Shown one piece after another: positions 5,577 to 57,699 of a stretch of DNA of 64,000 nucleotides. The notes under the pieces were generated by a model. That model made no database searches and was not told where the DNA came from. It saw only the letters and a program-made list of their open reading frames with translations. How positions within the stretch are numbered: position 1 is the first letter of the stretch; each line of letters begins with the position of its first letter. Where the stretch lies: the NCBI GenBank assembly GCA_037042915.1, contig CM073198.1, positions 806,001 through 870,000 of the forward strand, read 5' to 3'. This DNA is from Auricularia sp. M13 (lineage: Eukaryota > Basidiomycota > Agaricomycetes > Auriculariales > Auriculariaceae). Both the position numbers and the translations under genes were made by a program.

Positions 5577-5584
5577 GTCAGCAC
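5577..5584. repeat. Left target-site duplication of giant element 1
   Basis: GTCAGCAC, identical to 29769-29776 on the other side of the element. Confidence 0.65.
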
Positions 5585-6020
5585 CAATGGTACCGGGGAC
5601 TTTCGCTTAAGCGATTGCCGCACTTTGTGCAACGCATCGGTTAAGCGATTCCCGCACTTTGGCACGTTTTTGAAAAGTAAGTAAATGTAATCCGAGTGTA
5701 GATAGAGACACGTTACTACAGTATAAATCGCTGGGCATCGCTGAGGACAGCGTTTTGGGCCGCTTGTGATCGCTGGGTTTCGGTTGACATCGCTTCGCAT
5801 CGCTGAGCTACGGAATCAGCACGGATAGAACATGAGGATATTCGGTCGAAATCGGTGGGCATCGGTGGAAAGCGGCGTGTAGGGAAAGCCGGTGCGTTCA
5901 CCATCGCTTGTGATCGCTGTACCACAAAATCGCTGAAAATCGGTGAAGATCGGTAGACATCGCTAGTAATCGCTAAATATCCCTGCTAACTACACCGACC
6001 GTCCGCTCGCATATTACATT
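5585..6020. repeat. Left terminal inverted repeat and ATCGCTG subterminal array
   Basis: The first ~100 bases are the inverted terminus shared with 29680-29768. From about 5725 to 5990 there is a dense irregular array of ATCGCTG/ATCGGTG-type heptamers separated by 3-15 bases. Such arrays commonly serve as transposase-binding sites in large DNA transposons; that role is an inference here. Confidence 0.7.
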
Positions 6021-6510
6021 AAAATATAAATAGCCTCCGATTTCAAGCCGAAACGCTATCTTTGTTTACGGAGTACACTGCATAGATAATATGAGCTTGT
6101 ACGCATGCTGAGGGCTGAGCATACACTCACGGTCAGAGTCGAACTCATTCCACCCTTCGGCTACCTTGAAGTGAGCACAGGCTGTAGCTCTCAGCCGCTT
6201 GACCTCCTCCAACATAGCGCCATAAAATGACGCCTTCTGGAAGGCATAGGCTGCAGCCCCTTGTGCAATTTGCCGGCTACGCAGCTCATCGGCGGGCTGA
6301 CGCTGCCACCGCGGAACATCGGGGCCGTAGTTTGCTGCCGCTGCTGCGGCAGTATGCTCCATCTCCTCCGCTTTCTCGCCCTGCTGGTTACCGATGGCCT
6401 GCCAAATAGAACGCATTCGAGAAAAGTGCCGTTCGCTGCGCCCAAATTCTGCGCCCACAATCGACATCTGTTCAGACCAGCGCCGATAATGGCCTTGCAA
6501 ACGAAAATAC

Positions 6511-6795
6511 TGACTAGCAGAGGTTCGTTGCGTGCGTTCATGAGGGAGAGGGGATGGCCTGCATAATGCACGACTTCTGAGAGGTTGGATGGCCGCCAAC
6601 TGACTGCTCTGGAGTGTGGAGAAGTGGATGCTGGACCAAATCTAAGGATTGCAGAGGATGAGAACAGCTTATATACACAATTGACAACAGGGGAATGATC
6701 TGAATGTAATCAAAAGCAGGTCTAGTAACATAGGAGAGATCTCCGAGGGTGCCTAGAATGCCACAGAACAGCCTGGACGAAGTCCAGGCCCGACA
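6511..6795 (-). repeat. LTR (3' in element orientation)
   Basis: 285 bp, identical to 7495-7779. Confidence 0.9.
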
Positions 6796-7494
6796 CCTCC
6801 CCGGGACTTCAGACTGCGACCGTCCCCGGTCGCATGGAGCGGTCAGGCGCCTCTCGAGGACTTAATATTCGTGGCCTGTGCCACGATGCGTACCAGTGAC
6901 GGCTGCCGAAGATAACAGTGTCTTGAAGGTTGTAGAATATGAGTGTTGAGCTTGACAATTGAGACTGGCATGACGATGGATGTCTGTGACGGAACCCGGC
7001 GATGGAAACTATGAGACTCGGTGTAGGTGCAGTCCCCGGGCGTCTCGGACCCGAGGAAAGTGGTGTCTATGCCGCTGGACTAACTGTGTCCACTACGGCA
7101 GTCAATACGGTCCACCCATTCCGCATGACTCTGCCGATAATTCAATTCGATACTGCCAATGCTGATACTGTAATTCTGATACTGATGTCGAGGTACTGAG
7201 CGCCTATTCGAGGCCGCTGTTTGATGAGAGGTTGGGGTGCCGGAAACCGAAGCCAGAAGTTGGAATCCACTGCGGGCCGTCTCGAAGAGTCCGCGCAGGT
7301 TCGTGTCCAAAAGCGGCCGAACCGAATGTCGAGAAGCGCTCGGCGCTGTCGACAGCGACGCCGCAGCGTGCGAGAAGGTTTAATGCGCACCGGGGCGCGG
7401 TAGAAATGCTGGGACCAAGGTTGCGGCCATCCAGACTTTGAGCGGGGCAAAGCCCCGAAGCGCAGATCCCCTCTCCCTGCGGTGGTCACCATTA

Positions 7495-7779
7495 TGACTA
7501 GCAGAGGTTCGTTGCGTGCGTTCATGAGGGAGAGGGGATGGCCTGCATAATGCACGACTTCTGAGAGGTTGGATGGCCGCCAACTGACTGCTCTGGAGTG
7601 TGGAGAAGTGGATGCTGGACCAAATCTAAGGATTGCAGAGGATGAGAACAGCTTATATACACAATTGACAACAGGGGAATGATCTGAATGTAATCAAAAG
7701 CAGGTCTAGTAACATAGGAGAGATCTCCGAGGGTGCCTAGAATGCCACAGAACAGCCTGGACGAAGTCCAGGCCCGACA
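7495..7779 (-). repeat. LTR (5' in element orientation)
   Basis: 285 bp, identical to 6511-6795. Confidence 0.9.
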
Positions 7780-10700
7780 ATACCGGACGCGGTTGTCTAT
7801 GCAGTATGTTAATTTTGCAAAGACAACTCTGTCCGTTGCACGCACCGTCATCTGTCAGAAGAGCAAGTTTGGTTTTCTCCTGCTTGGAAACAAGCCCAAC
7901 GTCCAGTTCCCCTCGCCAAAACCAAGCAACATCTCCCTTGGACTTGCCAACATTCAGTGGCTGAGGTTTGTCGACGGGTGCGTGAGCGCGCAGCATAGTA
8001 GCGTCCAGATCCTGATAGGTTGTGTCCTCCCGGCTCAGACCCAAGGCCCTGAGCGCGCTTAGATGCTCCGAATAGATATTGACAAAGACATTTTGCTTGG
8101 ACTTCATTTTTTTTAGGTATGCTCTCGCTCTCGTCTTACCACCCGTGCTGTCCACCTGATCTCGAGCTTCATCAGCATTGGAGCCGAAAAGTCGAATGCT
8201 GAATCGCAGGTTCGAGAGCGTGCCCTCAGCATGTGCCTTTCGAAGCTCTCGCTCCATGTGGACCAAGCGATCTGGCACGCCATTCTCCTTCCGCTCCTCC
8301 TCGCTGAACCAGGAGGGTAGCATCAACGGCACATCCTCAGCGTAACCGGTCTCCTCGAGACTCTCCTCGTCTTCGGAATCACCGGAGTCGATTTCACCCT
8401 CCGTAATAACCTCGGCAAGGTAAGGCATATGCCTGAGCTGCAGTCGGCGAAAGCTGGCTATGCGCTCGCTCAAGTTACGACGCTTTTGTCTCACGCTCTG
8501 CTGAGCTTCCTTGTCCTGCTTATTCTTTCGTGCGTTGGCGGCTTTCCCACGTAGTCGCACTCTGCGCACGTTGAGCTGTAAACAGTAAATTGTGAAAGGC
8601 ACGTACTGATCTTCTGCTAACTGCACGCCTTTAGCCATCATGCCCACAACACCGCTCTTACGGATCTGTCCAGGAAGACGCTCCTCCCGTTCAAGCCTTG
8701 CTATGACGTCCTTGTGATTAGGGCCTATCAGTGCGTAAGTGATTGGCTCTTCACAGATTAGCGTTTGAACTTCACGGTTGGCAGGGTCAACACAGTATCG
8801 CCCGCGAATAGTATCGTCCTTGACCACCGCTGTCTCCGTCGGATACTCTGCTTCCCAGGCAGCTATGCGCGCAGGATCAATGCAGCTCGAAAACTCCTCG
8901 AATTCTGCCTTGGACACGGCAATGTGTTTGTGTGCTTCTGCGGCCTGGGAGTAAAGATATTTTGCTTACAAATTTTCTAAGTCCTTGCCAACAGCAAATC
9001 GAGCCGCACTCACCAAGTCCAACCAGTTTGTTGAAATTCCAGAAATTATGAACGTCGTTGAGGATGTCATGACGATGACCGGCGTTCGCGTCCCGACATA
9101 TGGCCGCCGCGAGCTTTGTTTCTGCCCACGGCCGCTCAACCCCTTCTCCGCATGCTCTCCCAGCACCCGGTGTGTACAGAAGATGATACACATATTGACA
9201 CTTCTCACAATGACCCTGTATATGCATTTTGGGTATAACCCACACGAGCTCTTTCGCGATCTGCTGGACGTCCTGTCGGTCGGGAATTCGTCTCGCAAAC
9301 GCCGCATGATGTTGATGCACAAAGAGCAGGCTCTGTCACTCGACAGCGCGCGGGGTAAGTCGGTGTCAGGCTTCGGTCCTTGGGCGTATACCCAGCCGTG
9401 GTCAATCATATAATACCTGAAGACATTAGCATTTTTCAGCCTCGAATCTCTGTGCTCAGACATACTTTTCGCCCAGCTTCAAGTCTACCATTCCCATCGC
9501 CGGGAAGCAGCTGTGACGTATGCAGCACACAGCAGACAAACCCGAAACCTCTCGATTGCTGAGGTCCTGGATTTTATGCATCTTGTCGTATCCAGGACAC
9601 GATCCAGCCTCCTGAGAGTTTATTAGTACTGCTTAGGCATTTGATGAACAAATGGTCATGCCTGCGAAATATCGCTATTTTTGGACGTGTATGCTTCCCA
9701 ATCTGAGCGTCGAGGAAGGAAAGCGCATCCATCGAGCAAGGAAGTGTCCCCAGCGTCCCGAAGTTTGACCTTCAAATAAACCTTGAACGATGCGTCTGTA
9801 CCGTGCCACAGGATGAATTTGAACCTTGTGTCGCATGAATACATGAATCCTGGAGGCCTGATCTCTCACCTGTGCTTCTCGTCGTTGGCCAAGTCATGCC
9901 AGCCCGGCTGCAGATTGAACTCTGGCTCTGGACACGCAGGGCAAGCGACGATGACCGAGCCAGGCCAACGATTGGCGGGGAGATGCCCGTCAATTCCGAG
10001 AGCCTGACCGCTTCGAAGCTGCATTTTAAGTACGCGCCAAAAGTGTCCGGCTCGAAGAAATGCATGGTAGCCTTTCTCTCGGGGTATGAGCCAAAAAATA
10101 ATATCCTGAAGATGTAAACTCACTCTCTCCTTGCCGCGTTTATTTTTCTGACACACGGCCTGCCAGTAGTCCCAAGTTGATTTTTTGCTCTGGAGCGACT
10201 CCAAGTGCCAATGCATCATAAGCTCGAATGTATAGCCGACGGTCGGTCGACTGAACGTGCTGGGGAAGATGCGTGCCCGGATGAGCTGATGCACCAGACT
10301 GGGCAGCTCCTGTCGAGGGCCCCGACACCGGCAGAGGACGAAGTTCAAGGTGTGATGACCATTCAGGTGTACCACGGTCATGGAGTGAGTGTAACGATGC
10401 TCAGGCAAGATTTCAGGGCAGGCTTGAACTTCCATCAACGTTGTCGGGCACGCAGCGCCGTTGTGTCCAAGATGTACCTTGAATTCTGGGTGATCGCCTA
10501 GCGCGGCGGGCTCGAACGACGACCCGTTCCATTTCTCGATGGCGTGCAGCGGCAGACTCCCATGGCGCTCAAGGAAGCAGGTATGACAGTGGACGGAGGA
10601 TCCAAAACAGTCAAGGCATCGATAAAGACGACGTCCATGCTCTTCGCAGTCGCAGACTTTGCCAACATCCTCGTTCCACTCCAAGCTCATCATACCGTCC

Positions 10701-11373
10701 AGCAACTGTGCTCGCGCCCTTTCGAATTCTTTGTTGAATTCCGATGTAGTCTATACACTCAGTGTCAGTAAAAGTATCACGCAAGTCGAAAGCACAGCGT
10801 ACCTTGCCATGGGTTGTACCCACGCCCTGGCCCGCCCTGTGGTTTGCCGGTGAGGCGCCGAGCTAGGAGCTGGCTGCAAGGCTGTATCATCGCCCGCTGG
10901 TAACGGACCCTCCCTGGCACTGTACTCTATACTATGTACATACACTTCGGCAGCCTTGCGTTTCTTGGGACTCGTGACACTCGAAAGATGGCAAAGCGAT
11001 CTTAAAGTACGGGTAGGGGAGTGAACGGAAGTTACATCGACAGACGTAGAAGAGCTAGCAGTAGTTTGGACTGTATAGACAGTTTGGGTGAGCTCTGGCG
11101 CTCGGATACGGGGACGCTTGCTGCGAGGCGGCATCCTGTAAAAACACAGCGAGAGCCGAAGTCCTGGTCACGATGTAATACACCACCGAATGGCGGCGCA
11201 TATAATCTACACCCACGAATGCGGATGCAGCAAGCGTGCTGGCGGCAACAGAGCCTAGCAGGCCGCAGGTACGGCGAGTACGAAAGGGAAGTCCGGACTT
11301 TGAATTCTCTCGGAAACACACGGCCCATCGGCCGAGATTGTAAAAACCAGAACATTGTTTTATGTTTTCCAGC

Positions 11374-13601
11374 CTAGCTATCCTTGTAATCTACCCCTGT
11401 AGTGCATACTCTCTTGGGCCTTTGAGGTCCATTACCTGCGGTTGCAGGTGCTGTATTTTTGACGGTGCGAGCGATGTTCCTCGCCGGTGCCGGTTCACGT
11501 GGCCGAGCCGGTACCTTCTGCGCACGTGAGCGCATCGTACGATCGGAAGTTTGGGCATCTGCAGCTCTCATCCGTTTCAACGGTGCATCGCTGCCATCCT
11601 TGACCTTGCGCCTGGTGAAGACTTTAAAATCACTGGGTGTACTGCCAGAAAATACATACTTTTTTCCGTTTCCCACAGCGGTTGATTCGGCGGGTATGGG
11701 AGTGAGAGGCGATTCCGGGTCTACGGTGCGGAAAGGGCTGCCGCCGGGTGTGCTGGGGAACGCAGTTGGCGTCGGAAGCTGCAGCCGATCAACGATTATG
11801 TTAAACTTAGAACAACCCGACTTACCACTTGCGATCCGAACCTCGAGCGCACAGGCGTCTGGTGCTGCTCCACCGTCTGCTGCTCCCGGGGCGACGATAT
11901 GGGCGTCTGTTGCTCCGGCGGTTGCGGCGTCAGCTGCTCCGCGGGCTTGGGCGTCTGCTGCTCCGGCGGCTGCGGTGTCTGCTGAAGCAGCGGCACCATC
12001 TGCACATCCCGCGGTTTGGGCGTTAACTCCGGCGGCTCGGGCGTCTGCTGGGGCGGCGGCTCGGGCGTCTGCTGCTCCGGCGGCTCGGGCGTCTGCTGCT
12101 GCGGCGGCGGCTGAGGCATCTGCTGCTCCGGCGGCTCAGGCGTCTGCTCCGGCGGTGGCTCAGGCGTCTGCTGAAGCAGCGGCACCGTCTGCACATCTGG
12201 CGGTCTGGGCGGCAGCACCGGAGTCTGCGGGAGCAGCAGCGCCTGCTGGTCCGGCGGTTTGGGTGTCTGCTCAATTGAGCTTGAGCCTGTATATTCTCGG
12301 CGTGAGATGAGATGCCAAAGCAACCCGTACTGAACTTACCGCGAGTAGCGCGCACTGCTACTTTGGACAGTCGCTTGACTTCGGCTGCGTGAATACCTAC
12401 AAAGATGTCAGCGACCACTTCCACCTGCAAGAAAGACCATACCTGGTAAAACCCGCATGCAGTAATCTCTTAGAGCTTCATCGTGCCGGTTATGCTCTGT
12501 GCTCTTGAGCCACTCGCCAACCTTGCCTTTCCTGCCTATACCCTGTAGTCTGTTCCCATGTAAGACATAATAGAAAGTATTAAGAGTACAAACGTACGAC
12601 TTGATTACGACGTTGCCGGTTGTAGGATCGAGTTGCGCGAGCTGGAAAACGGCCATGTTCGTGGAGCGATAAGAGAGCTTTCCCATAAGATCTGCGATTT
12701 TTTGGATAAGCTCTTGCTCGATCCTAATAATCGAATTAGACAGGGAAATGCATTGACTCGATGCTTACACTTCCTCCTGCGCCTCCAAGTTGGCGGGCGA
12801 ACTTCGCTCGGAGGACAGTTCCTGTGCGGCCCCCGCATAGCGCATCTTCTCCTCCGTGTCCAACAGCGCCCATCGGTCAGAAAGAACTCGATTTCGCACC
12901 GGAATCCGCTCCTGGTTCCAATCCGCAGCGTCAAACTCTGCGGCGAGCCTCTCGGCAATTTCACGGTCCAAGTCGGCCTTGATCATCCGCGCATATAGCT
13001 CTCTTGCGCTATCCGCCCGACCTTTATCAGCCGTCGTTGGCGGCCGAGACTGACCCGCCTGAAGGGCACCCTCGGGTGTTGCTGCAGTGCTGGCCCCGTT
13101 AGCACGGACGACGAGGGTAAAGAATTTAGAAAATACTCACCGCGTGTTCTTGTTCGACGCATTGAGCGACTGTTCGTAAATCTTGATCCACACGCAGTCT
13201 GCGAGTGAGTTGTTACGAACGTCCTGCCGAAATGCCTTACGCAGCTGTCAGCTAGGAGCATAAAAGCAAGCAAACAGTTTTACCGTGCGAGCGTCTTGCG
13301 ACTTGCAGTCCGCGTCATAAAGCTCAGGAAATTTGTCCACAACGTGCAGCCCGTGCGCCTCCCAGATGGGAATGATGTGCTGGGAAGTGTATATGCGTAC
13401 TTCTGCTTTTGATGCACCTGAGCGCTTCAACTGGTATAACTTGTACAACTCAGGCTTGAGCTCTTTCATGCATGCTGGGGTGACAACGAGATTGGGATCG
13501 CCGACCGTCCAGATAGGCCGCTGTACGTGACGCTTGCCCCTGCGCTTTGGCTGAGTCGACGAGGGCGGATCATCGGGTCCACCACCACCTGGTGGCGACA
13601 T
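11374..13601 (-). CDS. Cargo gene A1: helical protein with P/Q-rich repeats and basic tail
   Basis: Minus-strand multi-exon gene; the chosen ATG (13601-13599) precedes SPPGGGGPDD, and an upstream exon around 13757 is possible. The N-terminal half is helical, with two segments that match gene A2 in giant element 2: QERIPVRNRVLSDRWALLDTEEK corresponds to A2's DRKQRNKNQLAFNKRAAK region, and ELIQKIADLMGKLSYRSTNM to its DKLVDDVAKLLKR region. Next come QTPEPPEQ-type repeats (about 11830-12270) and a basic C-terminus ending VDYKDS. The spacing of W/R/Y in the central helices recalls HMG-box-like proteins, but I cannot confirm that. Several junctions need a one-base adjustment (near 13141/13081 and 12428), so it may be damaged. 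It lies downstream of, and in the same direction as, B1. Confidence 0.55.
11830..12270. repeat. Low-complexity P/Q/T codon repeat in A1
   Basis: An irregular array of a short unit read on the minus strand as QTPEPPEQ or QTPQPPEQ, with CTGCTGAAGCAGCGGCACC occurring twice. It encodes a probably disordered region. Confidence 0.7.
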
Positions 13602-13944
13602 CTGAGCACTCCACAGAACACCACGCCGGGCGCATGCATTTATGATATCCTGTGAAACAATCGTCCCCGCATAATCCATTGACCGAGTCAACCGGCATTT
13701 AGCATTCAGCCGCACGGTCCATCGAGATGATAACGTACATACCTCACCGATTCCCACGGGCTTCGCAGTTGATTTGGCAGAGAAGCACGCAAATCCTGTT
13801 CCTATGATTGTGTAGTAAGCTACGTCGGCATTTGATTTCGCTTAGGACTCAGGCCCACTGTGCCGCTTAACATATTGATGTTTCAGGTTGCCTCAGAAGA
13901 ACTGCAATTGATGGATGCTACGGGGGAGAATATCTCTCTATCTT

Positions 13945-15235
13945 TTACGTTCGAACGACCAGCTTCATCTGCACATCTGTGACCTCCGTCACCTCACCCC
14001 CCTCGGCCTCATCATAGAGATCGTACTGTAGAGCCACGTCGGGACCGTCGTTGATGCAGTCGTCAGCGATATCTTCGATGCCAAGGATGGTGCGGGCTTC
14101 CTCGGAGAAGTCCTTGAGATAGAATCGGCAGTCGGCCACCCTGAGCCGACGGCGAGGTAGCTCCACAACACACCAATCCGCCTCGCCATCCGTGCCCTCG
14201 GCATCCACGTCCTGGATCTGTGAATAATCAGGCAACCATGAAGGGATAGGGGGAAAATGCACATACAAAGTTGCGAGACTGGAAGACGCACTGCACGTGA
14301 GCGAAGACGTTGCCGAGGGTGTCCCAATCTCGATTGTAGTCGAGCTCCTCCGGTCGAAGATCGTTGACATGGCGCCCGAGCTCCGCGACGTCGACGTACA
14401 CCACAAGCCGTAGCACCGCGGTGTGGGTGTTCAACTCCTCGTACATAGCATGCCCTTTGTAGAATGCGAGATCCCCAGCAAAAGGAGGGTCGTCCTCTTC
14501 GTAGGCGTCGTTGTAGTAGATACGGTCCAGGGTAATGTTGTCGAGGCGAAGGTCATGCATGGTGCGATCACTGGTGGCGAGCTCGTGGTAGTAGGTGAAC
14601 CTGCGATGGCTGGCACGCGTGCACATTGTGATGGAGTAGGTTTTGTGGCCAGCTGGGCGGACTGGGCTGCCCTGGAGGGAAGGATGAGCTGAACGTCGTC
14701 GACAGCAGGGACGGAGTACGCACCACCCAGACATGAGCGCAGGATACAAGTAGCTTGATGCGGTGCTCAACTTGCAAATCCCGCACGTCAAGTTCCTGGA
14801 GAGGTTTGGCGGGGCGCTCCGGGTACATGGCTTGGCCACGGGCAGTATGGGTGCGGAGGCGGCAGCGGACGCGAAAGATGGCACAGCACTCGCAGCACAA
14901 CATCAATGAGCAGTGAACGTCGCTGCGACGGCGGCAGATCAGGCAACAGTCTGGGTTGTCGAGGGCCAGTTGGACTTCGTTTGGGGTGCGGGCGTGTGCA
15001 AAGCTGAACGGAATGACGGTGCGAGCAGACGAGAGCTGGTAGATTATACCGTGCTCCTTGCACTACACGGCGACAGTGAGCATGTTGGGTCACACACGAG
15101 CGTCGCTGCACATACCGCGGCGACCTTCATCGGCGTTGTACCACGGTACACTCGGTACCAGCGTGCAGCATGGTCGCATTCCGTCACCGGGCAGAGGACG
15201 TCGGGCTCGTCGCTGATGATGGAAGGGAGCGGCAT
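13945..15235 (-). CDS. Cargo gene B1: cysteine-cluster protein (378 aa)
   Basis: Four exons, 15235-15116, 15062-14724, 14671-14267 and 14217-13945, all phase 0, separated by introns of 49-53 nt with normal sites; no frame break. The N-terminal part carries CPVTEC (residues about 15-20) and a dense cluster CCLICRRRSDVHC, CCECC, RVRC (about residues 75-105), probably a zinc-binding module. The rest is acidic and Tyr/Asp-rich, ending VVRT. A damaged relative is B2 (45047-45556), sharing the start MPxxS, the CPV motif and the Cys-cluster spacing. KDZ elements are known to carry several Cys-cluster modules; whether this is one of the named types I cannot tell. TTATATGG lies about 65 bases upstream of the ATG. 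Confidence 0.75.
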
Positions 15236-15608
15236 GTTGCACGTTCGCGGGCCAGCGGGGTGGGGAATGACTGTGTGGGTGCCAGAACGCAGACGCCATA
15301 TAAGTCAATGGGGGCTTGCGCGAGGTCACGCTGGGGCTGGGTCACGTCGAGAGGTCAAAACGCGCGCATCACGGCAGGTCCCGGTGGGATCATGAGCCTG
15401 ACCGAAGTCCGTTGAATACAGATATCGCTTAAGGACCAGGTTGCGTCGATCCCTTGAGATGGGAGATTTCTCTCACGTTTCAGTGGGTAATGTAATGAAC
15501 CTCGGGGTCCTAGCACAGCGTACAGGTCAATCGGGCGAGGTCTTGGGCTCATAATTATCAAACACTCACCAGCACACCGCGTGCGCTGCGAAGCCAAGTC
15601 TTCCCACC
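15236..15608. promoter_or_regulatory. Divergent promoter between B1 and C1
   Basis: 373 bases separate the two outward-facing ATGs. A TATA-like TTATATGG for B1 reads on the minus strand at about 15296-15303. No clear TATA was seen for C1. The equivalent region in giant element 2 is 45557-45781, again between divergent B and C genes. Confidence 0.45.
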
Positions 15609-16665
15609 ATGCCGCTGGTCACAGTACCTCGCCATGTCCCCAGAGGTATACCTCGAGCCGCTGTGTGCATAGAGCTTGCTTGTCGACAGCGCCATCCGAC
15701 CATCATGGCCACCGTCGACAGCTACCCAGAATACGCCGGGCATGCTATAGTAATTGTGAGCACTGTGCATGCCCGTAATACAAGCTCGCAGCTCACCTGA
15801 TATAGTGTCCTCGATACGGCACAATATGCGCGGCTTGGAACCTGCAGACATTCGGCTCTGTCGACCCGCGTCGCATGCGCCCCATCGTACAGGGCCCACT
15901 GCAGCGCATCGTCTGCGATGGCGCAGACTGCCGCCGTCGACGGCCGCACCCGAAGCCTGGCAATCATCGATGTCGTCTGCGACAGTGTATCCATTGCTGT
16001 CAGCTCGCCGTCTGCCCAGCGACGGGCCACGGTGTTCGCCGTCAGCCAGCATCTGACACACCAACCACCGAGCCAGTTGTGATCGAGATCGTGCTGTCGG
16101 TGGATGCAGAGCAAGGGTCAGCGGTATGCAACCTGTTGCAGACGCCCGCGCCGCCGGCTTACTTTTGTAGGCGCAGACGATGACAGTGCGATATCCCGTA
16201 CACCACGACTCGTTCAGCCTTCGCACGGTCGTCTGCGTCCACACCGTCGGCCTTCAGCTTCACAACGTTGTTCTTAATACTATGGAGGTCTTTGACGCGG
16301 GCGTGGACGACTGGCTCCCTGTCAGCATGGACGATATCATACACTTGCGCGGAGCCCGTACCGTCTTGCTGCGCGCTGTGCGCCGGCTGGCGTTCCCGCT
16401 CGTGTACACCGTGGACATGGCGGATGGTATGGATGCCTGCTGCAAGCGTCAGCCGCAGCAGACACTAAAACAGGCCTTCCTCGCTGCGTTTCCGCGCTGC
16501 GATTGGTCCCCTGCGCTGTATACGGCGGCAGCACGCACCTGGAAGTATGCACCGCCCGAGGTGAAGCAGGCGTTTGTTATAGCTGGGCGCTGCCCGGATG
16601 GACTTTGGATTCAGCTGGCGACTCAGGTCGATGCGCCCCTGCCTGATGTCATAGCCATTGATTAG
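15609..16665 (+). CDS. Cargo gene C1: partner of B1 (319 aa)
   Basis: Exons 15609-15755, 15806-16123 and 16171-16665, all phase 0 with 47-50-nt introns and no frame break. Exon 1 codes 49 residues, and exon 2 begins with Cys-Pro exactly as in C2 (48 residues, then Cys-Pro), so the intron position is conserved. Exon 2 has a cysteine cluster (CDGADCRRRR, then CRLRQCIHCCQLAVC) not present in C2. The shared C-terminal half includes a LLRAVRRLAFPLVYTVDM stretch (C2: LLQLRAISKAFPLTYARDM), then a helical region FLAAFPRCDW, WKYAPPEVKQAF and AGRCPDGLW. Function unknown. Confidence 0.75.
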
Positions 16666-16769
16666 ATACTATGACAGCATGTGATTGCTAGTAAAGTACC
16701 TTAGTGCGCCCCTATACTTGAAGGTATATAAACCCGCGCACGGCGGGCTACGCTAGCATTAGCCCTTGT

Positions 16770-17510
16770 CCTCCTGCACTTGAGCCCGGCCCCGAGCTTG
16801 TGCACTGCTGATTCATACGTCATTTCATCATGCCGCCGTCCTCGCACCCGCACGCGCACCGCTGCACTTGAGCCCGCTCCCGAGCTTGCGCACCATGCAC
16901 CCCCTTTCCCGTGCTCGCACACTGCCTACGCACTTGAGCCCGCACCCGAGCTCGTGCACCCCCGTCGCTGTAGCCCGCTCCCGAGTTCGCGGTACGCACT
17001 TGAGCCCGCGCCTGAGCTCGTGCACCCGAGTCGCTGTAGCCCGTTCCCGAGCTCGCGCACTTCCCACGCACGTGAGCCCGGGCCCGAGCTCGTGCACCCC
17101 GGTCGCTGTAGCCCGCTCCCGAGCTCGCGGTACGCACTCGAGCCCGCGCCCGAGCTCGTGCACCCGAGTCGCTGTAGCCCGTTCCGAGCTCGCGCACTTC
17201 CCACGCACTTGAGCCCGCACCCGAGCTCGTGCACCCCCGTCGCTGTAGCCCGCTCCCGAGCTCGCGCCACACACTTGAGCCCGCGCCCGAGCTCGTGCAC
17301 CCAAGTCGCTGTAGCCCGTTCCCGAGCTCGCGCTGCCCACGCACTTGAGCCCGCACCCGAACTCGTGCACCCCCGTCGCTGTAGCCCGCGCCCGAGCTCG
17401 CGCCACACACTTGAGCCCGCGCCCGTCGCTGTAGCCCGATTTCGAGCTCGCGCACATACCTTGTTGGGTTCGCGCATTGCCCTTGCACTTGAGCCCGCAC
17501 CCCAGCTTGT
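16770..17510. repeat. Minisatellite with dimeric 66+70-bp higher-order unit
   Basis: Monomers start CACTTGAGCCCGC and contain GAGCTCGTGCACCC and GTCGCTGTAGCCCG. Well-formed monomers begin at about 16931, 16996, 17070, 17136, 17206, 17272, 17342 and 17409. They alternate between type A (CCCCCGTCGCTG, then GCTCCCGAG) and type B (CCCGAGTCGCTG, then GTTCCCGAG). Diverged copies precede them from 16780. TATATAAAC at about 16725 and a run of AATAAAATAAAAT at 17541 bracket the array, so it could be transcribed. All six frames are unusually open, but as a consequence of the repeat. Confidence 0.85.
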
Positions 17511-17693
17511 GTACCGCATCATATAAATCTGCATATTCAAAATAAAATAAAATAAATTGAGTATAACAAGTTGGCTCGGATAATGAGAGGTTAATTGAGC
17601 AAGTACTTACTTACCATTAAGTAAAGTTTCACAAAATAATAGCGCTTGGACGATAATTGCAGTGTCTGTTTCTTCTAAAAGCTTTTACATGAA

Positions 17694-20148
17694 TCAATCG
17701 CGAGCATAGTATCGAACAAGCTGATCAATGGTCAGAAGGTTAGCCCAAGCTAGTTCACTCCAACTCTTGGCAGCGCGCATATATGCCCGCTTTTCCTCGT
17801 CCGTCTGCAGCTCGTTCAAACATCTCTCGCCCGCACAACGCCAACGGAACAATCCACCGGCGGTGTAGAAAGTCCACGATTGCCGGTACTCGTGTGACTT
17901 CAACGGTGCGTTGCCGTGAGTGATGAGCGCTGACATGACGAAGAGGATATCGCCGGGGCGAACTCGACGACGACGTTGGGCTCCTTCATGATGAAGTGAC
18001 CGAAGTCTTCGGGTTATATTTGCCCATTGCGATGATGGTGCAAATGCCCTGCTGCAAGTTCATAGCGTCGCGATGGAAGAGCGTCGTAACCTATACACCG
18101 TCAGTCAAGACGGACGTGCACAAAGAAAATATAACTCGCCTGTGGGCGAGATTGAAGGTCATCGCCGCAAAATAATAGTTGAATGGTTCTTCGTCTTCGT
18201 CATCGTCATCGTCGTCCATGCGGAACGCCGTTGAGGTTCAAGTCCTCGTTGAGCTGACGATACTCTGCCATCACTTCCGGGAACGCGTTGTTGGCAGATG
18301 CTAACGACAATCAGCACGCGTATTATGAACCGACATGCACGTACATTGCGCGTACTGGACGACCCGGCGCACTTTCTTATCCTTGAGGAAGGTGCCAATG
18401 AGTCGACGATTCCTTTCCTGCCGTGCGGTGCACTTGACGCCGCTACCGATGTCCGACGAAAACGAGTGGGCTGCTAAAGAACTCTCAGCCGCAATGAAGA
18501 CGAGGCTACAAACAGAACACACCTTCTGACCACCGCCAAAGGAAGTGCCGACCTGGATTTTCGAGAAGTTGCGCGTGTGTTCGTGCTGGGGGAGTTGTCC
18601 TCATGGCATATACTGAGCTCTTCCTGCAGACGCTTCAACTCCTGCGCACAATGACGCTGCGCATCCAGATAGCCGGGATCTGTGCATGCTGGCGCCTTGA
18701 CACAGTAGATGCGACCCTTGTTATCTGTCATGATCACGCCCCTGCAAATTTTAATCGTGAGCTCAACCAGCGCCAGTGCATGGTACGCGCACACCTTTCG
18801 TCTGCAACCACGTATAGAGCGCCCTGCTTCTCCACAAGATCGCGTACCATCGTCGAAACGTTGGGGTCTAACGTAGAGGGTGTGCGGGCAGACGAAGTGG
18901 AGCTTTGAACTTGTTCCTCGCGGAACTTCGACGGCGCGATGAACGAGCTCTTGCCAGTAACGTGAGACTTAACGTCAATGTTGGACTCGATGCGGACCGC
19001 CTCCTTGATCTGTTTCGCAGCATGGGCAGCGTTGGGTCCACCCGCGCACGTTGCTTCAATCGGTGACGCGCAGCGCGCTCGCGTTGCGCATCAGTCTTGA
19101 CCTTGGTTACCATGGATGTCCCAACTTGCTTCTTCAGACACGGATGGCTCGCCATGCTTCTTCGTAGACTCAGCGGACGATTTGACTTGCTTCTTGCTCT
19201 TCATCAGCCGCTGTACCTTGCGCGGACGATGTTCTTGGATAAGAGAAGTGTAAGAAAGCGACAACAAGCCATGCATGACAAACACACCCTCTTGCAGCTG
19301 GGAATCATCGGTTCGACGTGCGTCCAGCACTTGGGCTTTGCGTAGAGCACCTATCCCACATAGATGAGCTCAGAAATATAAACAACACCAAGAACTCACG
19401 TCGCTGATCGTGCCGCACAATCTGCGGCGGTGCCATGCGAATAACGCGCCCATCGCCAAGCTTAACATCGCGTCCTAGAGCTCGTCGGCATTATGCTCAA
19501 ATATATACCGGACAAACATACCACTACCGCGGATAACAGGAACTTGGTGTTGCAGAGGACGGTGGAGAGCCTTGGTGCGTGCTGACAGCTGGGGGACCAG
19601 GACGCACAGCTCCCGGAACGTGGGACTTGAGGTAGCTGTACGCGGGGAAGAGATCAACACATGGCGCGGTGTCAGATGAAATGCATACCGCGCGGAGCAC
19701 GCACGGTGGGCGCTGGCGCGCCGGACGTGTAACGATCGCCTACAAGACCAGAGTTAACGGTAGCGAGAGATGCAGCATATATGCTGACCTTTGCTCCCCG
19801 AGACGAGCGTCACACCAGCTGTGGGTGCGAAGTCAGCGCTGTTCAGCGGATGAAGAGACGGATGAAGAGATGGACTCACCCTTGCGCTTGAGGCGCACAG
19901 GCTCCTCGCGACCGTCTGAGCTCTCTGAGCCCGACGAGTCTGACGGCTCGTACTCAGAGCCAGAGTCCTCCTCGAACCCGTATTTTTAGGGGGCATGAGG
20001 TTGACGGCGAGGTTGAGGTTTGCGTGCGGGTGGACATCACGTGCGGTAAACCCGTCGAATTCGCTGATCTCAGCGGCGCTCGCTATAAGGTCGAAGTCTG
20101 AGCGGATGACTGGGCGTCGTTGACGAAGCGGCCACTGCGAAGTTCCAT
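17694..20148 (-). pseudogene. TET/JBP-like 2-oxoglutarate/Fe(II) dioxygenase, frame-disrupted
   Basis: Minus-strand multi-exon gene from ATG 20148 to stop 17694. The catalytic part reads: SFGGGQ (about 18540), YYFAAMTFNLAH, the HxD iron motif in LFHRDAMN (18075-18067), a PGDILFVMSALITHGN segment whose His (17918-17916) would be the distal iron ligand, then HEYRQSWTF whose Arg would bind 2-oxoglutarate. This order matches the fungal TET/JBP family, which oxidises 5-methylpyrimidines in DNA. The N-terminal part is acidic, Ser-rich and basic in turn. At least four one-base breaks are needed: near 18011-18013 in CCC, near 18220-18235, in the T run at 19983-19987, and near 20110-20115. It shares orientation with KDZ copy 1, as reported for TET/JBP genes on KDZ elements. 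A CATATAAG box lies about 45 bases upstream. Confidence 0.75.
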
Positions 20149-20187
20149 CGTAGGCGGGGAGCGAGGCGACCTTTCACGGTGAGCGCT

Positions 20188-20196
20188 CTTATATGG
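20188..20196 (-). promoter_or_regulatory. TATA-like box upstream of the TET/JBP-like gene
   Basis: The minus strand reads CATATAAG about 40-48 bases before the ATG at 20148. Confidence 0.4.
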
Positions 20197-20469
20197 CCCA
20201 TCCGAGCACCCCCTCGAGTGAGAGGGGTAATGCTGTCGGGCCGCGCGGGAGGAAATGGACCTGACGATGAGGTCAGTCAGACACCTGGGCGCTTCGACTG
20301 TACTCACCAGGGTTTCAGGTCTTGAGCCAGAGTTGGATGAATGCATGTGTGTTGTCGACGATGATGTACCGTGACTGATTTTGCCGTTCGGGGTCCTCGA
20401 CGGGCTCGTTCGGCCGACATCAAAGGAGACGATTGTGATTTTGACCGGAGAAAAGGTCAGACGGAACGC

Positions 20470-22728
20470 ATGGAGATTGGCGCTTGCCGAACTGCGCAGA
20501 CGATCGCCAAGGTAGCGTGTGAAACATTTGCGGCTCGCAGACAGGAGCAGCTACAGCAGGCGCAACAAATATATATGCCGATGGCGAATTGCGGACTTCA
20601 TCGTCAGACCCGCAGATCGAACGCGCACCCATGGAGTCCAAAGCCTCTCATCGTCGCGGCGCCACAACAGCACGCGCAGCGCTCTGCTAAGCCTATTGCT
20701 CTCACGGTGATTTGTCTCTGCTATAGCTGTTCAGCAAGCTGACTAGCTCGTGCAGGTCGCACACGTACGTGCGGCATTACACACTGGCAGCCAGGTATGC
20801 TCTTGTCGACTTCACGAACCGCAGTTGATGGACAGTTTTCCAGGCAGGCAAAGGGCACGGTGTGGCTGCAAATCGCAAGGTACGCGCATCAATATACTGG
20901 CGTCGCCGCGGCGAAGTCGTACTGACAATATTTTATAGAATAAGGCCAAGACGCCACCCGCGGACGTGATCATGATCTCGTCCGACTCTGAGGATGAAGT
21001 TCCCACACAGGCGCATTCAACGTCGGCCACCTCGCGTCGCATCCGCAAGCCGAGCACCGTCATCGAGATCTCCGATACCGAGGACGAAAAGACAAACGAT
21101 GGGACGAGTCCTCGCGACTTCGGGTTCGACTTGGTCAACGGCATCCTGGTTGAAAAAGACGACGTTAGTGCACAGGTCTCCAGCGCATGACGATTGTACT
21201 CACAGCACTACAGGACGACGTCGTGGCGGTCTCGGTGAGCGAGGGTTCCGCGGTTCACATGCGTGCTCGTCTCGAGAAAATGGCTGGCGACGACGACGCT
21301 GCTGTAGCCGCTGAGGCTAATGGGGAGAGCGAGGAGGTTAGGCAACGCAAAGTGGCACGGCCTTGACACTTACGTTCTGTTCGCAGGAGTTTGATCCCCA
21401 GCTTCTCGCGCTGGAAACAATGGTGAGTACAGCGTTATAGTTGGTATGTTTTACTTACGGCTTGCGGCGCAGGAGGTTGACACGCAGCAACACGCGCCGG
21501 AGCTAGCGGCACTGCGGCAGGAGTTAGAGAAAGTGAAAGCCGATCTGGCGGCCAAGGTACGTACACAAAGACATATCGAGACCAGGCGCAATGCTAACTA
21601 CTTGCAGCGCGAGGTCAAGGAGAACAGCCTAACGTGCTTCTGCGCGCGGCGGGTGCACAGATATTACAGGTGAGTTTTATGTTCGTACTGCGCGCAAAGT
21701 GAACTTACCAGAGATGTAGCTTGCGATGCGGACACGGCCCTTTCCATCTGAGCTGTCTGCAGGAAGCTCATTCGCAGCACGGTCGCTTCCTCTACAGGGC
21801 GCCTCAGTGCCCGACCTGCCGCGGTACAATACGACAGCCGCCCGTCGAGAATTGGAACTTGCGAGAGGCGTGCGAGCACGGTAACACGGACCCCAATCCG
21901 GATGACGGCTTTGACTCAACCTGGCTGGATCGCGTCGTATGGGGTGGTGCAGCGCCGCGTAGAGTTTTCAACAATGCCCCAGAGCTCGACGAGCTGCCAC
22001 TCCCACTCGGATTCGTACCGGCCGCGGCAGCACCGGACGATCCAGCTGACCCTGACTATCAGCCCAGCGACGAAGACAACGGGTCGAACGACGGCGATGT
22101 TGACATGCTTGAGGACGACGACGACAACAACAACCGCTCAGAGGACGGTTGGATGGAAGCACTGCCAGTGACGCTCGACTATTTCAACCATTTTCCGCGG
22201 GACCTCCACCTCGATCCGCCCGTCCCCGCGGCGACGGTTGACCTATTGACTGGCTGCGCCGATGAGCTCACGTTGTGGAGGTACGAATATCGGGACATAC
22301 TCGACGATCTATCAGGCGACCAGGCCGGTGTGATTGCCCGGCTGGTCGATGCCATCCGCAACGCTCGACTCGAGCGTCTGGCAGAACATCTGCCCCGATT
22401 GGCCTACGGCATTGCGCTCGATTATGGTATCGTGCCCGCCGAGCAGGACGCCGCCATTCCTGAGCTTGACCGTGCCACGCTTGACCTATTGACGGGCGAT
22501 CAGCGTGAGCTCGAGCTGACGGTGATGCGCAACGCGTTTGCGCTGGACGGCGACGAACCGTTGATGGAGGACAAGGTGGACCAGATTTTGCCCTTCGTCC
22601 ACCACCGCATTCAGAAACTCCAGCCGTACCTGCCGCTGTTGAATTTGGACGGCATGCGCGAACTCCCGCCGTATATCCGCGCGCGCGCACGGCGCGCTCC
22701 ATATGATCACTGCGTAGTGCGCTATTAG
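20470..22728 (+). CDS. RING protein with two N-terminal SUMO-interacting motifs
   Basis: Exons ...20706, 20756-20794, 20844-20879, 20939-21163, 21214-21336, 21387-21422, 21473-21556, 21608-21669 and 21720-22728; every phase agrees and introns are 49-59 nt. The start is uncertain (ATGs at 20470, 20575 and 20581), giving about 580-616 residues. Exon 4 has VIMISSDSEDE and VIEISDTEDE, classic hydrophobic-acidic SUMO-interacting motifs. A short coiled coil (ELAALRQELEKVKADL) follows, then a RING-like finger: CFC in exon 8, RCGHGPFHLSC and CPTC in exon 9. The rest is acidic (DDDDNNN) and then helical. SIM plus RING is the layout of SUMO-targeted ubiquitin ligases; that role is an inference. No frame damage. 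Confidence 0.75.
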
Positions 22729-22860
22729 CTATCGGAATATTTTCAGTATAATTTCATTACCTTGTTGCCTGCCACCGAGCTCAAGCGCACACGAGAGGTC
22801 CGCCCGTAAGACGAAGTCCTTGTGCGAGCGGGATGTGGCCGGCCATTCATGAGTTACCGA

Positions 22861-23040
22861 GTTCGCCGGCCAGTTGCCGGGCGCTTCGGACTTGGGCGCT
22901 TCGGACTTGCGGGCGCTTCGGACTTGGGCATTCCAGACTCGGGCGGGCGCTTCGGACTTGAGCTTTGTCAGAACCTCGGGCGCGGGCGCTTTGGAGTTGG
23001 GCTGGCGCGAGAACTTTGGTGTTGGGCAGTCGGGACTTGA
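22861..23040. repeat. Short tandem array of a 16-18-bp unit
   Basis: About five copies of GGGCGCTTCGGACTTG, some separated by GC or by diverged spacers, just downstream of the RING gene. Confidence 0.7.
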
Positions 23041-24690
23041 CCAACCTGTGCTCGACTGGATTGTGCTCAGCGGGTTTGCCGGACAATTTAGTTGCCGGCA
23101 CCAGCACGGACCTTCGGCCGAGCGAGAAGAGCTCTAGAGTAATAATGCGGATATGATACAAACAAACACGACACAAAAACACGGGGCGAGAGGATATGAG
23201 AGGTGTGGGTTAAACTACAAAGAACGAGTACATCGACGAGTCGGGACCTGCAGCTGCGGGCGTGAGGATCTGCCGTATGACATAAGATGCATACCTTAAT
23301 GAGAACTTCAAGCGGCCTAGGCTACATGAGCGTGAGCACAGGTATGGGCAGGGAGATAGTACAGGTGACCTTAGAATGTGAGACGATGGCCGGCGCCGAC
23401 CTGCTGTGCATGAGGGCAATGCCGGACACCGAACGGTCACATGGATGCATACCTACTCTTCGGAGACGATGGCAGCAGGCCTGAGATGTCACTGCGTGAG
23501 AGCGGGCCGAAAAGCTACAAAATATGTACGGTTAACATACCTGGTACAGGCCTTGGCGCTGGTGAGATGAGACGTCGAAGGACTTGAGCGCGCCATGGTC
23601 AAATATACTGAACGTTACATACCTCGTGAATAGCCTCGACAATGACCCCTGAGACTCTGCGAGGCCTGGACAGCGGCTGTAAATTAATGGCATGGTCAGA
23701 CGCGACTACGACGGCGAGATCACCAATGTGGCACCTACCTGGTCTCGACTCGCGAACCGTGCTACATCGCGGCCCCATAACGAAGCTGCACCATGGCCCA
23801 TGGGCGCTGAGGACGGCTGCCGAATGGCAGCCGCCCTCGACAAGGCGATCGTGGCCGATGGCCTGCGTGGCCAGCTGATAGGGGCTGGCGCCCGTGCGGA
23901 AGGATCGACCGCTCCCGAATGGGAGCAGCCCCAACGACGGCGCGGCCAGCGCCAGCGGCGCAGAGTGTGTCGATGGCGCCGGACTCGAATGAGCCCGGCG
24001 CCGGTGGGTGGCGGGGTGGCGGCGGGACTTGGCGGGACGAGAGCAAGATTGGCCAAGTCCGATTCGGACTCCGGCCGAAACTCATCCTCCTCGCGCCAAG
24101 TCCCGCCCCAGCACCCAGCACCCAGCGCCCGACACCCACCGCCCGCCGCGCCCGCGCCGCGAAGACCAGCTCCAGGATCCGTTGGCGCGTGCATTCGTGC
24201 GCGTCGACATCGTCTGCGCACCTCCATTCGGGGTGTGCAATCACTCCACCACCAGCGCAGGCGTGCGCGTCGTGCTCGACCCCAGGCTGCAAGGCCGTGT
24301 CCACGTCCCGCCCACTCGCTGCTACTCTCATTCGAGAGTGGTGGCACATTTCTTCGCCAGATCCTACGGTAGGTCTGCTAGCTGGTGCTGGTGCTGGTGC
24401 CGCTTCTCATTGACGACCACAGCGGCAAGAGCGTGCAAACCTCGCAGGGTCAGCGACTCCCCGGCTCTGAAATTATTGTGCTCTTCACTTGGAGCATTAA
24501 AGGTGTGTTGTCTTATTTTCGTTTGCCGGGGTTGGCTCGAGTTCTCGCTCGCGCGAGTGTGTGTGGTGTGAGACTGTTTCCACGGCGGGCTGGGCGAGGC
24601 CAAGACCAACGCTGCACGCGCGTCAGAAGGCAGCCCTAGTTGAGCATGTGGCAATGACGGCGGGCGGGACGCCTGGCGACCATCAGCACG
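23041..24690. other. No convincing gene; GC-rich spacer with one hairpin
   Basis: Open frames here are typical of GC-rich sequence and lack good splice structure. An inverted repeat GGCGGGACTTGGCGGG / CGCCAAGTCCCGCC (about 24027-24112) could form a hairpin. Confidence 0.4.
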
Positions 24691-25560
24691 CGGGCAAGGG
24701 TGGTGCGGCCGCTGGGGGACGTGCGGCAGATGCTTACGGGCGCACGCGTCGAGCTTGGCATAGCCACGCACTCTCAGCGCGCGAACGAGCGGCTGACGGC
24801 CGCTGCGGGCGCGGGAGCGCAAGCTGGTCCCCAGTGAGCCCAAGACAGTCACTGCGCGCGCGATGAGCGCCGATGGTCTTGTCACGCGAGGCGGATCTGA
24901 GACCGTGCGCACGACGAGCTGCAGATCGTCACCGCGCGCACAGCAAGCATGGACCGCCGCATACGTGCGGCAGATGTATACGGGCGGGCACGTCGAGCCC
25001 GGGATGGTCACGGCGGGCAGGGAGAGGCGAAGACTCTCCGTGCGCGAACCAGCGGCTGACGGCCGCCGCGGGCGGGCGAGCACAAGCTGGCCTTCCCCAG
25101 CGAGCCCATGACAGTCACCGCGCGCGCTATGAGCGCCGAAGGTCATGCCGCGCGAGGCGGATCCGAGACTGTGCGCGCGACGAACGGCAGACAGTCACTG
25201 CGCGCACAAGAAGCTTGGACCGCCGCAAACGTGCGGCAGGTGTTTACGGGAGGGTGCATCGAGCCCGGGATGGTCGCGGCCAACGGGAGAGCTGAAGACG
25301 GTCTCCGCGCACGAACGAATGGCTGACGGCCGCCGCGGGCGTGGGGACGTGCCGCAGACCATGGCCGCGCACACGTAGAGCAGCAGGCCGGCAGCGGGCG
25401 CACGGCGAGCATGCTGCGGCCGCCACGGCCGTGTAGCAGATGTTTACGGCACGGTCCGTTGAGCCCGTGGCTGTCACAGTGGGCCGGGAGAGCTGGAGAC
25501 CGCAGCGCGCACGCAGCGAGCGGCAGACGGGCACCCCTGGCGCGGCGAGTCTGAGACACT
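24690..25560. repeat. Decayed tandem repeat of 210-265 bp
   Basis: Four diverged units recognisable by CGTGCGGCAGATGTTTACGGG-like cores at about 24721, 24967, 25232 and 25436, each followed by GTCGAGCCCGGGATGGTCAC-like sequence. Long open frames over this region follow from the repeats. Confidence 0.7.
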
Positions 25561-25972
25561 GCGGCCACGCAGGGACCCAAAGCATCATACCGGGGGAGAG
25601 CAGGAGATCGTGACCGGGCGTGCGTAACAGTTGGGCGAAGTATCACGTCGCGTGGGGCGAGTGCCTCCCGCTCGCCGCGCGCGACATGCATGCCCCTTCT
25701 CACCATGGGCAGCAGGTGGGCCCAAGGCATGCATGGCAGACCCGTGGAGGATGATCATCTGCGAAAGCGAATATCTAACCATATGCAGCTCCCAGCTGCC
25801 TGATTGCCCTGACATCTCAAGCTCAAGCATTGCACACACGATGGCCGCAGTGTGTACTGTCCTAGCTGTCTGCTGCTGGGCCCATCTGACGCATAGTGCA
25901 GAACCCATTCGAACCCGACATTTACGACTTGCTGGCGATCGCCCGGGGTCAATCGCGCCGCGCGACGTCGAC

Positions 25973-28900: not shown

Positions 28901-29173
28901 CCTCTAGGATTACGGCAGCCGCCTCACACTGACCCAAACCCCGAGAACCGCAAGGTCTCAATATATAGCCTGTGGAAGATTGTGCGCGCGTGGCCGAGGT
29001 GCCGCGAGGTTACCAACCTCCGGCGCTACACTGCAACAGAGGGTTTGTCAATGGAGAAGTTGCTCGATATTGAGCGCGAGGTCTGGAGCTTCTACGCGCA
29101 GAGCTTCCAGGATTACTTTGGGATTCTGCCCACTATGCCCACCGTGATGCCCGCCAATCCGTTTGTCTCGTGA
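25973..29173 (+). CDS. Large cargo gene of giant element 1, unrecognised basidiomycete family
   Basis: ATG at about 25973 (MGDHGGDTS) with introns near 26129-26181, 26243-26293, 27443-27492 and 28489-28537; stop at 29171-29173. The product is about 900 residues: an acidic Ala-rich N-terminus, a Trp/Tyr/Pro-rich core (YPQYWQPAAPHMAW, YVMQPEDWLPVQDG, LGIPVWFVSKSMPP), an RS-rich linker (SVSRDRSRSPRPGRARPRAR), then a second globular part (HHFVAQKESRMVFVFRSW, WLNCWGGQDGF, YFGILPTMP). One-base breaks are needed at GGGG 26455-26458 and near 28271-28280. The family resembles hypothetical proteins I associate with agaricomycete element-rich regions; no function is known to me. It is the last cargo gene before the right terminus. 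Confidence 0.55.
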
Positions 29174-29282
29174 TGTAATGTAGATACTTTGTCAAATCCC
29201 CTCTCGTAGACTCTGCTTTGGTGAAACGACTGTATATGACGCACTGCTGCAACAACGCTAACATGTTCCATGATTTTTCAGC

Positions 29283-29768
29283 CATTCATAATTGCTTGAC
29301 GCTGGGGTAAGCGGCGGTAGGTCCGTGGTCGCTCGCATAGCTATGCTCAGCGATGCGCAGCGATTCTCAGCGGTGCGGGGGGCTGATTGACGGTATCAGT
29401 ATTTGCACATTGTCCAGCGATGCACTGCGCTTCTCAGCGATGCTCCATGTTAATTCAGCGATTCCAAGCTGTGTGGGTGCTGCCCGACTATGTTCATATT
29501 TAAGCGGCCCCCAGCGATGCTCAGCGATTGTCAGCGAGGCTCACTGCCAGGCTCACTGCCATGCGAGCGCTGACCGTCCGTGCTCATATTTCAGCGAGCT
29601 CAAGCGATTACCAGCGATTCCAAGCGATTTAAATATTATTATTAGATAGCTAGTACCATTACACTACAGACGTTTGAACACTGAAAACGTGCCAAAGTGC
29701 GGGAATCGCTGAACCGATGCATTGCACAAAGTGCGGGTATCGCTTAAGCGAAAAGTCCCGACACAGCT
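29283..29768. repeat. Right terminal inverted repeat and CAGCGAT subterminal array
   Basis: A mirror image of the left end: CAGCGAT-type heptamers from about 29340 to 29640 (the reverse complement of ATCGCTG), then the conserved terminus up to 29768. The array is similar in character but not in detailed order to the left one. Confidence 0.7.
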
Positions 29769-29776
29769 GTCAGCAC
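29769..29776. repeat. Right target-site duplication of giant element 1
   Basis: GTCAGCAC, identical to 5577-5584. It lies in NLR intron 1, 15 nt before the exon that starts at 29792. Confidence 0.65.
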
Positions 29777-41214: not shown

Positions 41215-41726
41215 CTACGAGTCTGCGTGTGAGTCTGAGAGATCCTGGACAATCAGAGTAGAGGGTTCGGGGAATATAGTGAACTTGTCGCTGGGAACGG
41301 CGATGAAATCACCATCCATGCTGACGCCGTTCAGCGTGATCCGCACCACGCGTGATACTGGAGCGAACGCGGTGTTGAGGAACGTGGCGAGGTCCTCAGC
41401 GCTTATGTGCACTGCATCCGAGCTCGAGATGTCAATATCCTGCAGCTTGGGCATCGCGAGCGGGCGAGGCGGCGGTTTGAGCAGCTCGCCGTCCGCGAGC
41501 GTCAACTCAACGCGCGTACACGAGGGCAGCGCGCCGAATGCGGGGAGTAGTTTGGCGCAGGTGCTCGTGGAGCAAAGCGTCTGCACGCGCGAGAGGATGC
41601 CGTCATCGACATAGACTGGAGGTAGGTACACGTCGTCGATCTGGGCGCGCGAGCAGATGAAGGTGCGCCGTAGCCCCGTCTCGACCGATTGGTAGAGCAA
41701 TTCGAGGTCCTTGGCACAGGTGTAAC
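41215..41726 (-). pseudogene. Truncated F-box/LRR-like fragment
   Basis: About 170 codons closely related by eye to the C-terminal half of the protein at 3-971, in inverted orientation. Homology stops at about 41720, where the inverted terminus of giant element 2 begins, so the N-terminal half is missing here and was not found on the far side of that element. The frame is otherwise open to its stop at 41215. Confidence 0.7.
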
Positions 41727-41805
41727 GGGACATTTCGATTAACAGTATCTGTTAATTTTGAACCATTTTCGGCTTAATCATTTCGGTTTATTTGGTACAT
41801 GGAGA
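41727..41805. repeat. Left inverted terminus of giant element 2
   Basis: Aligns with the reverse complement of 58570-58646 with few differences. Confidence 0.7.
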
Positions 41806-57690: not shown

Positions 57691-57699
57691 CTAGAGCGC

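Follow-up and report, generated by a model that had tools for sequence, protein, structure and literature searches.

The A-B-C gene block of Kyakuja-like KDZ transposons in Auricularia sp. M13 and its possible role

Why do two different KDZ transposons carry the same three genes in the same arrangement, and what might these genes do? The question is raised by a stretch of 64,000 nucleotides of the Auricularia sp. M13 genome (assembly GCA_037042915.1, contig CM073198.1, positions 806,001 to 870,000), which we refer to as the window and in which position 1 is the first letter. The window contains two such transposons, elements 1 and 2, each with genes that we name A, B, and C. An earlier note, made from the letters alone, had described A-B-C as a conserved cargo block and as a candidate for an undescribed system. 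Our analysis confirms what that note observed and supports in part how it was interpreted. On balance, we favor reading A-B-C as a block of conserved accessory genes that belongs to Kyakuja-like KDZ DNA transposons and probably helps them to transpose, and not as captured host cargo.

Arrangement and relatedness of the two blocks

The features on which the argument rests are as follows. Loci elsewhere in the genome are written with a colon (e.g. C2:131 kb), which sets them apart from genes C1 and C2.

5585..29769: element 1, complete KDZ (Kyakuja-like) transposon of 24,185 bp, defined by copy ends and flanks
5578..5584: left 7-bp target-site duplication of element 1, TCAGCAC
29770..29776: right 7-bp target-site duplication of element 1, TCAGCAC
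6066..11134, minus strand: KDZ transposase gene of element 1, spliced, ends approximate, with CxC2 and KDZ domains
11374..13601, minus strand: gene A1 (end at 11374 approximate), six-exon core of 344 amino acids (aa) that includes an HMG-like stretch, followed by a repeat-rich tail containing a further exon of uncertain splicing
13945..15235, minus strand: gene B1, four exons, 378 aa, cysteine clusters in the first 110 residues
15609..16665, plus strand: gene C1, three exons, 317 aa, cysteine cluster at residues 84-122 and a conserved C-terminal domain
41717..58656: element 2, KDZ transposon of 16,940 bp
42569..44755, minus strand: gene A2 (end approximate), part of which is homologous to the HMG-like stretch of A1
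45047..45509 (approximate), minus strand: gene B2, short, covering only the cysteine-rich N-terminal part of B1, frame broken in the window copy
45782..47031, plus strand: gene C2, intron at 45926-45972 and a candidate second intron at 46258-46302
52571..55664, plus strand: KDZ transposase gene of element 2, spliced, ends approximate

The limits of element 1 were set where similarity to its other copies stops, and by its flanks. It starts with CAATGG, ends with CAGCTG, and has imperfect terminal inverted repeats of ~60 bp. Element 2 starts with CAGGTG, ends with ATGGTG, and has imperfect terminal inverted repeats of ~48 bp. The A-B-C block is enclosed by element ends and 7-bp target duplications. 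In the transposases of both elements, a CxC2 cluster (PF18803, E = 4.1e-18 in element 1 and 1.1e-28 in element 2) sits upstream of a KDZ domain (PF18758, E = 4.1e-23 and 2.5e-22, respectively, a partial domain in each).

The gene models bear out the layout described in the earlier note. In both elements, A and B lie in tandem on the minus strand, and C is on the plus strand, divergent from B. A-B has the same orientation as the transposase gene in element 1 (all minus) and the opposite orientation in element 2 (A-B minus, KDZ plus). The note's further claim, that element 2 carries the block in inverted orientation with respect to its transposase and that the block acts as a unit, agrees with these models, and such an inversion fits a movable unit. 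In the second copy of element 2, the length differs at the point where B2 changes frame in the window copy.

All locus counts given here come from a search of this one genome (52.1 Mb, 14 contigs). The 11374-16665 block of element 1 is present in eight copies, including that of the window, which are 97-100% identical, and the other seven also align on both flanks as far as the sequences compared extend. Because these copies are near-identical, they suggest that the element 1 family has moved recently. Beside C1, at 16820-17520, many overlapping matches between copies reveal imperfect tandem repeats. There are also four diverged relatives of element 1, DIV85 (C2:131 kb), DIV69 (C1:80 kb), L024 (C1:4.69 Mb), and L031 (C2:2.30 Mb), which together with element 1 make five lineages with a common KDZ-A-B-C order. 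Three other element-1-type copies were checked for 7-bp duplications at both ends. These are exact in the copy at C1:6.15 Mb and in DIV69, and DIV85 has a mismatch at one of the seven bases. Using a purpose-written spliced protein-to-DNA alignment, we recovered A, B, and C in all four relatives. Frame breaks were read over in all three genes of DIV69 and in the A gene of L031. The introns of the three genes are mostly at corresponding places across these lineages. Six of the eight element-1 copies match the last exon of C as a single segment, and in the remaining two the match is split in two.

Are the two blocks homologous? We compared profiles of the five lineages with the element-2 proteins using hhalign, with 60 shuffles per pair as a control. 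The scores were 37.9 for A1/A2 (shuffle mean 14.7, maximum 23.6), 27.0 for B1/B2 with a single open B2 frame (mean 13.3, maximum 20.7), and 69.0 for C1/C2 (mean 14.7, maximum 21.5). None of the 60 shuffles reached the score of any pair, and the note's claim that the A, B, and C pairs are related therefore stands. Cross comparisons among A, B, and C gave 10.8-22.0, except for B2 against the C profile (25.8), which indicates that cysteines common to B and C contribute to the B signal. The similarity between the A proteins is confined to 105 columns, i.e. the HMG-like stretch and what follows it.

Spliced alignment to DNA was done with three lineages as query, and with dinucleotide shuffles and reversed proteins as controls for the element-1 query only. 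For A, the scores were 57 (element-1 query), 68, and 76, compared to 48 for the best of 12 shuffles and 51 for the reversed protein, a small margin with the element-1 query. For B, they were 100 (element-1 query), 58, and 65 (best of 20 shuffles 47, reversed 48), and for C 126 (element-1 query), 98, and 117 (best of 12 shuffles 50, reversed 55). In an hmmsearch of the open frames of element 2, the A and C profiles found matches with E = 1.2e-4 and 4.2e-11, respectively, and the B profile found none at E<=1. A search started from C2 retrieved C at 12 element-1-type loci, with E = 3.1e-7 to 0.055.

The introns of C are a further line of comparison. The note had proposed a shared intron position, and its codon arithmetic holds, the first intron falling after 47 codons in C1 (49 with another donor) and 48 in C2, followed by Cys-Pro. 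However, the N-terminal stretches before this intron are not significantly alike, since 6 of 60 shuffles reach their score. The second intron of C1 precedes AQTMTV, and in C2 an in-frame 45-bp segment (GTGAGT...CAG) directly precedes HVTRTV. HVTRTV lies opposite AQTMTV by gap-free extension of the hhalign alignment, whereas a two-sequence alignment puts gaps there. This second intron may be better evidence of homology than the first, without being proof. A cysteine cluster of C2 in another frame of exon 1 was dropped, its motif not being significant (reached by 12 of 60 shuffles).

A skeptical view would be that the two blocks resemble each other only superficially, through chance or convergence, because their proteins are of low complexity, basic, or rich in cysteine. 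Charged residues are indeed abundant in A1 and A2, the C profile gives the B2 frame almost the score that the B profile does, the first intron of C has no significant sequence similarity behind it, and A, at 57, is not far above the reversed protein. Against this stand the absence of any shuffle reaching a pair score in the profile comparison, the same outcome for all 44 DNA shuffles across the three genes, the identical gene order and orientation, and the 12 element-1-type C loci retrieved with C2. We regard this view as very improbable for the blocks, and for C it is already refuted. Judged on these comparisons, homology is certain for C1/C2 and very likely for A1/A2. It appears likely for B1/B2, the weakest pair, for which the evidence comes from the cysteine-rich N-terminal part only.

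Co-inheritance with the transposase, selection and role

The earlier note had placed the block on two KDZ elements, and our search shows it beside KDZ at other loci of the same genome as well. The genome has 42 CxC2 matches, and 16/18 C loci, 12/13 B loci, and 14/15 A loci are no more than 10 kb from one of them, compared to at most 1.63% of the genome. These loci, merged by hand from exon matches, are not independent, eight being one near-identical family and two being the element 2 copies. The B count comes from one search and excludes element 2. Left out of the counts are a weak C-like match at C9:2.85 Mb (E = 0.042) and a 162-bp A2-like DNA match at C7:1.28 Mb, and six of the 42 CxC2 matches, including the one beside L024, are below the curated cut-off. 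At 26 of the 42 CxC2 matches there is no C locus within 10 kb. At two loci, L029 (C9:60 kb) and L030 (C6:3.70 Mb), C adjoins KDZ and points away from it.

Across eight lineages, the identities of KDZ and C are correlated (rho 0.75, reached by none of 2016 sampled permutations), in a test that covers C alone and includes only 152 residues of the L024 KDZ. This shows that C is inherited together with the transposase.

We estimated the ratio of nonsynonymous to synonymous divergence (dN/dS) by the Nei-Gojobori method for 10 lineage pairs per gene. It could be computed for 21 of the 30 pairs, the others being saturated at synonymous sites, and several of the dS values obtained are above 1 and rough. 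The ratios are 0.12-0.19 for A (4/10 pairs), 0.15-0.39 for B (9/10), and 0.12-0.27 for C (8/10). Between element 1 and DIV85, for which dS is 0.10-0.60, they are 0.12, 0.15, and 0.16 for A, B, and C, respectively. All three genes are under purifying selection.

These results bear directly on whether the block is cargo, the term used in the note. Starship elements of other fungi carry captured cargo, and the size of elements 1 and 2 (24 and 17 kb) would suit cargo benefiting the fungus. However, C co-diverges with the transposase, several lineages have the block on their KDZ elements, and copies distant from CxC2 are few. The exceptions are two of 18 for C (C4:2.97 Mb and C5:0.62 Mb, 20.7 and 31.3 kb off, respectively), one of 13 for B (a partial match at C1:1.21 Mb), and one of 15 for A (a partial, A2-like match at C1:5.85 Mb). 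We consider captured cargo improbable. The co-divergence of C, the position of the block inside complete elements, and the selection acting on it make A, B, and C look like core accessory genes, and the term cargo was not upheld.

What could such accessory genes do? When B and C proteins from four lineages are aligned, each set has invariant cysteines, in the first 110 residues of B and in the cluster of C, and C also has a conserved C-terminal domain. Because of these cysteine clusters, B and C may bind zinc. Pfam gives no match near the curated cut-off for B or C and no CxC family for the two B and three C proteins searched, Pfam scans of selected frames of both blocks return nothing for A, B, or C, and ncbifam and PDB profile searches return nothing for B. 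Several weak matches were treated as chance: Maelstrom on L024 B (E = 1.1), DUF6384 on L031 A (0.027), and FAD_binding_2 on L030 C (0.16). The same applies to the only matches of C in its PDB profile search, a putative polyketide cyclase (E = 0.57) and a pair of designed proteins (0.0099 and 0.058).

Accessory proteins of some other large DNA transposons play helper roles in transposition. By analogy, A would be an HMG-box-like DNA-bending protein, and B and C would be zinc-cluster proteins binding DNA, chromatin, or one another. Jointly, the three might help the transposase find or pair the inverted ends of the element, assemble on them, or choose targets.

Alternatively, A-B-C could be an anti-silencing module, whose proteins bind the element and counter silencing by host chromatin or methylation. 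The VANC protein of plant Vandal elements is reportedly thought to counter silencing. In transposons of other fungi, including Kyakuja, TET/JBP genes are thought to aid escape from methylation-based silencing, according to the passages covered of PMC12730594. Of the 19 Tet_JBP matches listed for the genome, not one falls inside either element or less than 30 kb from an A, B, or C locus, and the block could fill that role in elements 1 and 2, which have no such match. Cysteine clusters and an HMG-like stretch would suit chromatin binding as well as transposition. On the other hand, no Pfam match of A, B, or C to an enzymatic or chromatin-reader domain reaches the cut-off. We hold anti-silencing to be unlikely, if a serious competitor, and a role in transposition to be the likelier of the two because C co-diverges with the transposase.

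Several points weigh against A-B-C being the transposition helpers that we favor. Anti-silencing accounts for the same facts. All HMG matches of A are sub-threshold, HMG_box_2 (PF09011) matching L024 A with 19.3 bits (E = 0.0019) against a curated cut-off of 22.4, and A1 with E = 0.12, also below the cut-off. Pfam gives no HMG match for A2 or L031 A. On A1, RNase_P_Rpp14 (E = 0.022, below cut-off and treated as chance) outranks the HMG box, and in the PDB profile search with A a designed protein (2jvf, E = 0.17) comes ahead of the BBX HMG box (1wz6, E = 0.63). No C is detected within 10 kb of 10 of the 25 strongest CxC2 loci (the other 15 have one), and neither A nor B has a match in the 10-kb stretches at L029 and L030. 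Hence, KDZ elements either manage without C or have a C too diverged to be detected.

A bolder version of the accessory-block reading is that B and C are two undescribed zinc-cluster families, which together with the HMG-like protein would form an obligate multi-protein transposition machinery, or an anti-silencing complex, of Kyakuja-type elements, encoded by an invertible block predating the split between the transposases of elements 1 and 2. We offer this version tentatively, with less than even confidence. A conserved three-protein block without TET/JBP provides defined candidates for the other functions on which the movement of such elements, or their escape from silencing, depends.

Other features of the two elements

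Next to C1, element 1 has a fourth conserved gene.

17697..19090, minus strand: gene D, exons not resolved

Gene D adjoins C in the DIV69, L024, and L031 lineages, and its best exon is 74-76% identical in L031 and L024. It has no match in element 2 at E<=1e-6 and belongs to no Pfam family. A six-frame Pfam scan (E<=0.1) of the rest of element 1 (17.6-29.8 kb) returned no matches. In the window copy, the transposase gene is interrupted by a 1.26-kb insert (~6511-7774) missing from nine other aligned copies, with a possible AATAC duplication.

Compared over 5585-21584, element 1 and DIV85 (locus L020+L021) show a mosaic-like pattern. dS is 0.456 in A, 0.599 in B, and 0.104 in C, and identity is 96-98% along most of KDZ, compared to 77-89% for the A-B stretch. 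This pattern suggests recombination or conversion between element lineages.

Element 2 has two copies in the genome, the second at about C6:570-587 kb. The copies are in opposite orientation on the same contig and their flanks are swapped, CTTGGCA/TTGGCCC in the window (41710-41716 and 58657-58663) and TTGGCCC/CTTGGCA in the other copy. The 7-bp target duplication of element 2 is deduced solely from these swapped flanks. Such flanks would be left by recombination between the copies, inverting the ~260 kb between them, or by an assembly error of the same shape. Between elements 1 and 2, at 35323-37932, an open frame of 870 aa has a weak DUF4218 match (E = 0.0019, below cut-off) and perhaps encodes another DNA transposase.

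Comparison with known systems

Additional proteins on KDZ elements are not without precedent. KDZ elements reportedly often encode such proteins, including one with a divergent HMG domain (Iyer et al. 2014). We take A to be probably that protein; A likewise has a divergent HMG-like stretch and adjoins the KDZ transposase. Hence, the note's description of the system as undescribed holds only in part, for B and C, which have no match near a Pfam cut-off, and probably not for A. In the literature passages covered, outside of which fall most subscription papers, the A-B-C block is not described.

As far as the passages covered of PMC12730594 go, elements 1 and 2 resemble Kyakuja, of the KDZ superfamily in Agaricomycetes, in their 7-bp target duplications and 5'-CA..TG-3' ends. 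They also share with Kyakuja the KDZ catalytic domain, the CxC2 cluster, and extra genes on the element. Unlike the two Laccaria Kyakuja families, which have no terminal inverted repeats according to the same passages (PMC12730594), elements 1 and 2 have imperfect ones (~48-60 bp). We therefore label them Kyakuja-like, a name assigned by these features. They also differ in having no TET/JBP match, and A-B-C is not mentioned in the passages of PMC12730594 covered.

The closest parallel for B and C may be the CxC5 and CxC6 proteins linked to KDZ elements, which are likewise cysteine-cluster proteins of mushroom mobile DNA (PMC7641404, in the passages covered). Unlike these, B and C give no Pfam CxC match. 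In Pleurotus, CxC2 adjoins KDZ whereas the CxC5 and CxC6 genes do not, again according to the part of PMC7641404 covered. B and C are families without a Pfam model; accessory genes on KDZ elements, as a kind, are known.

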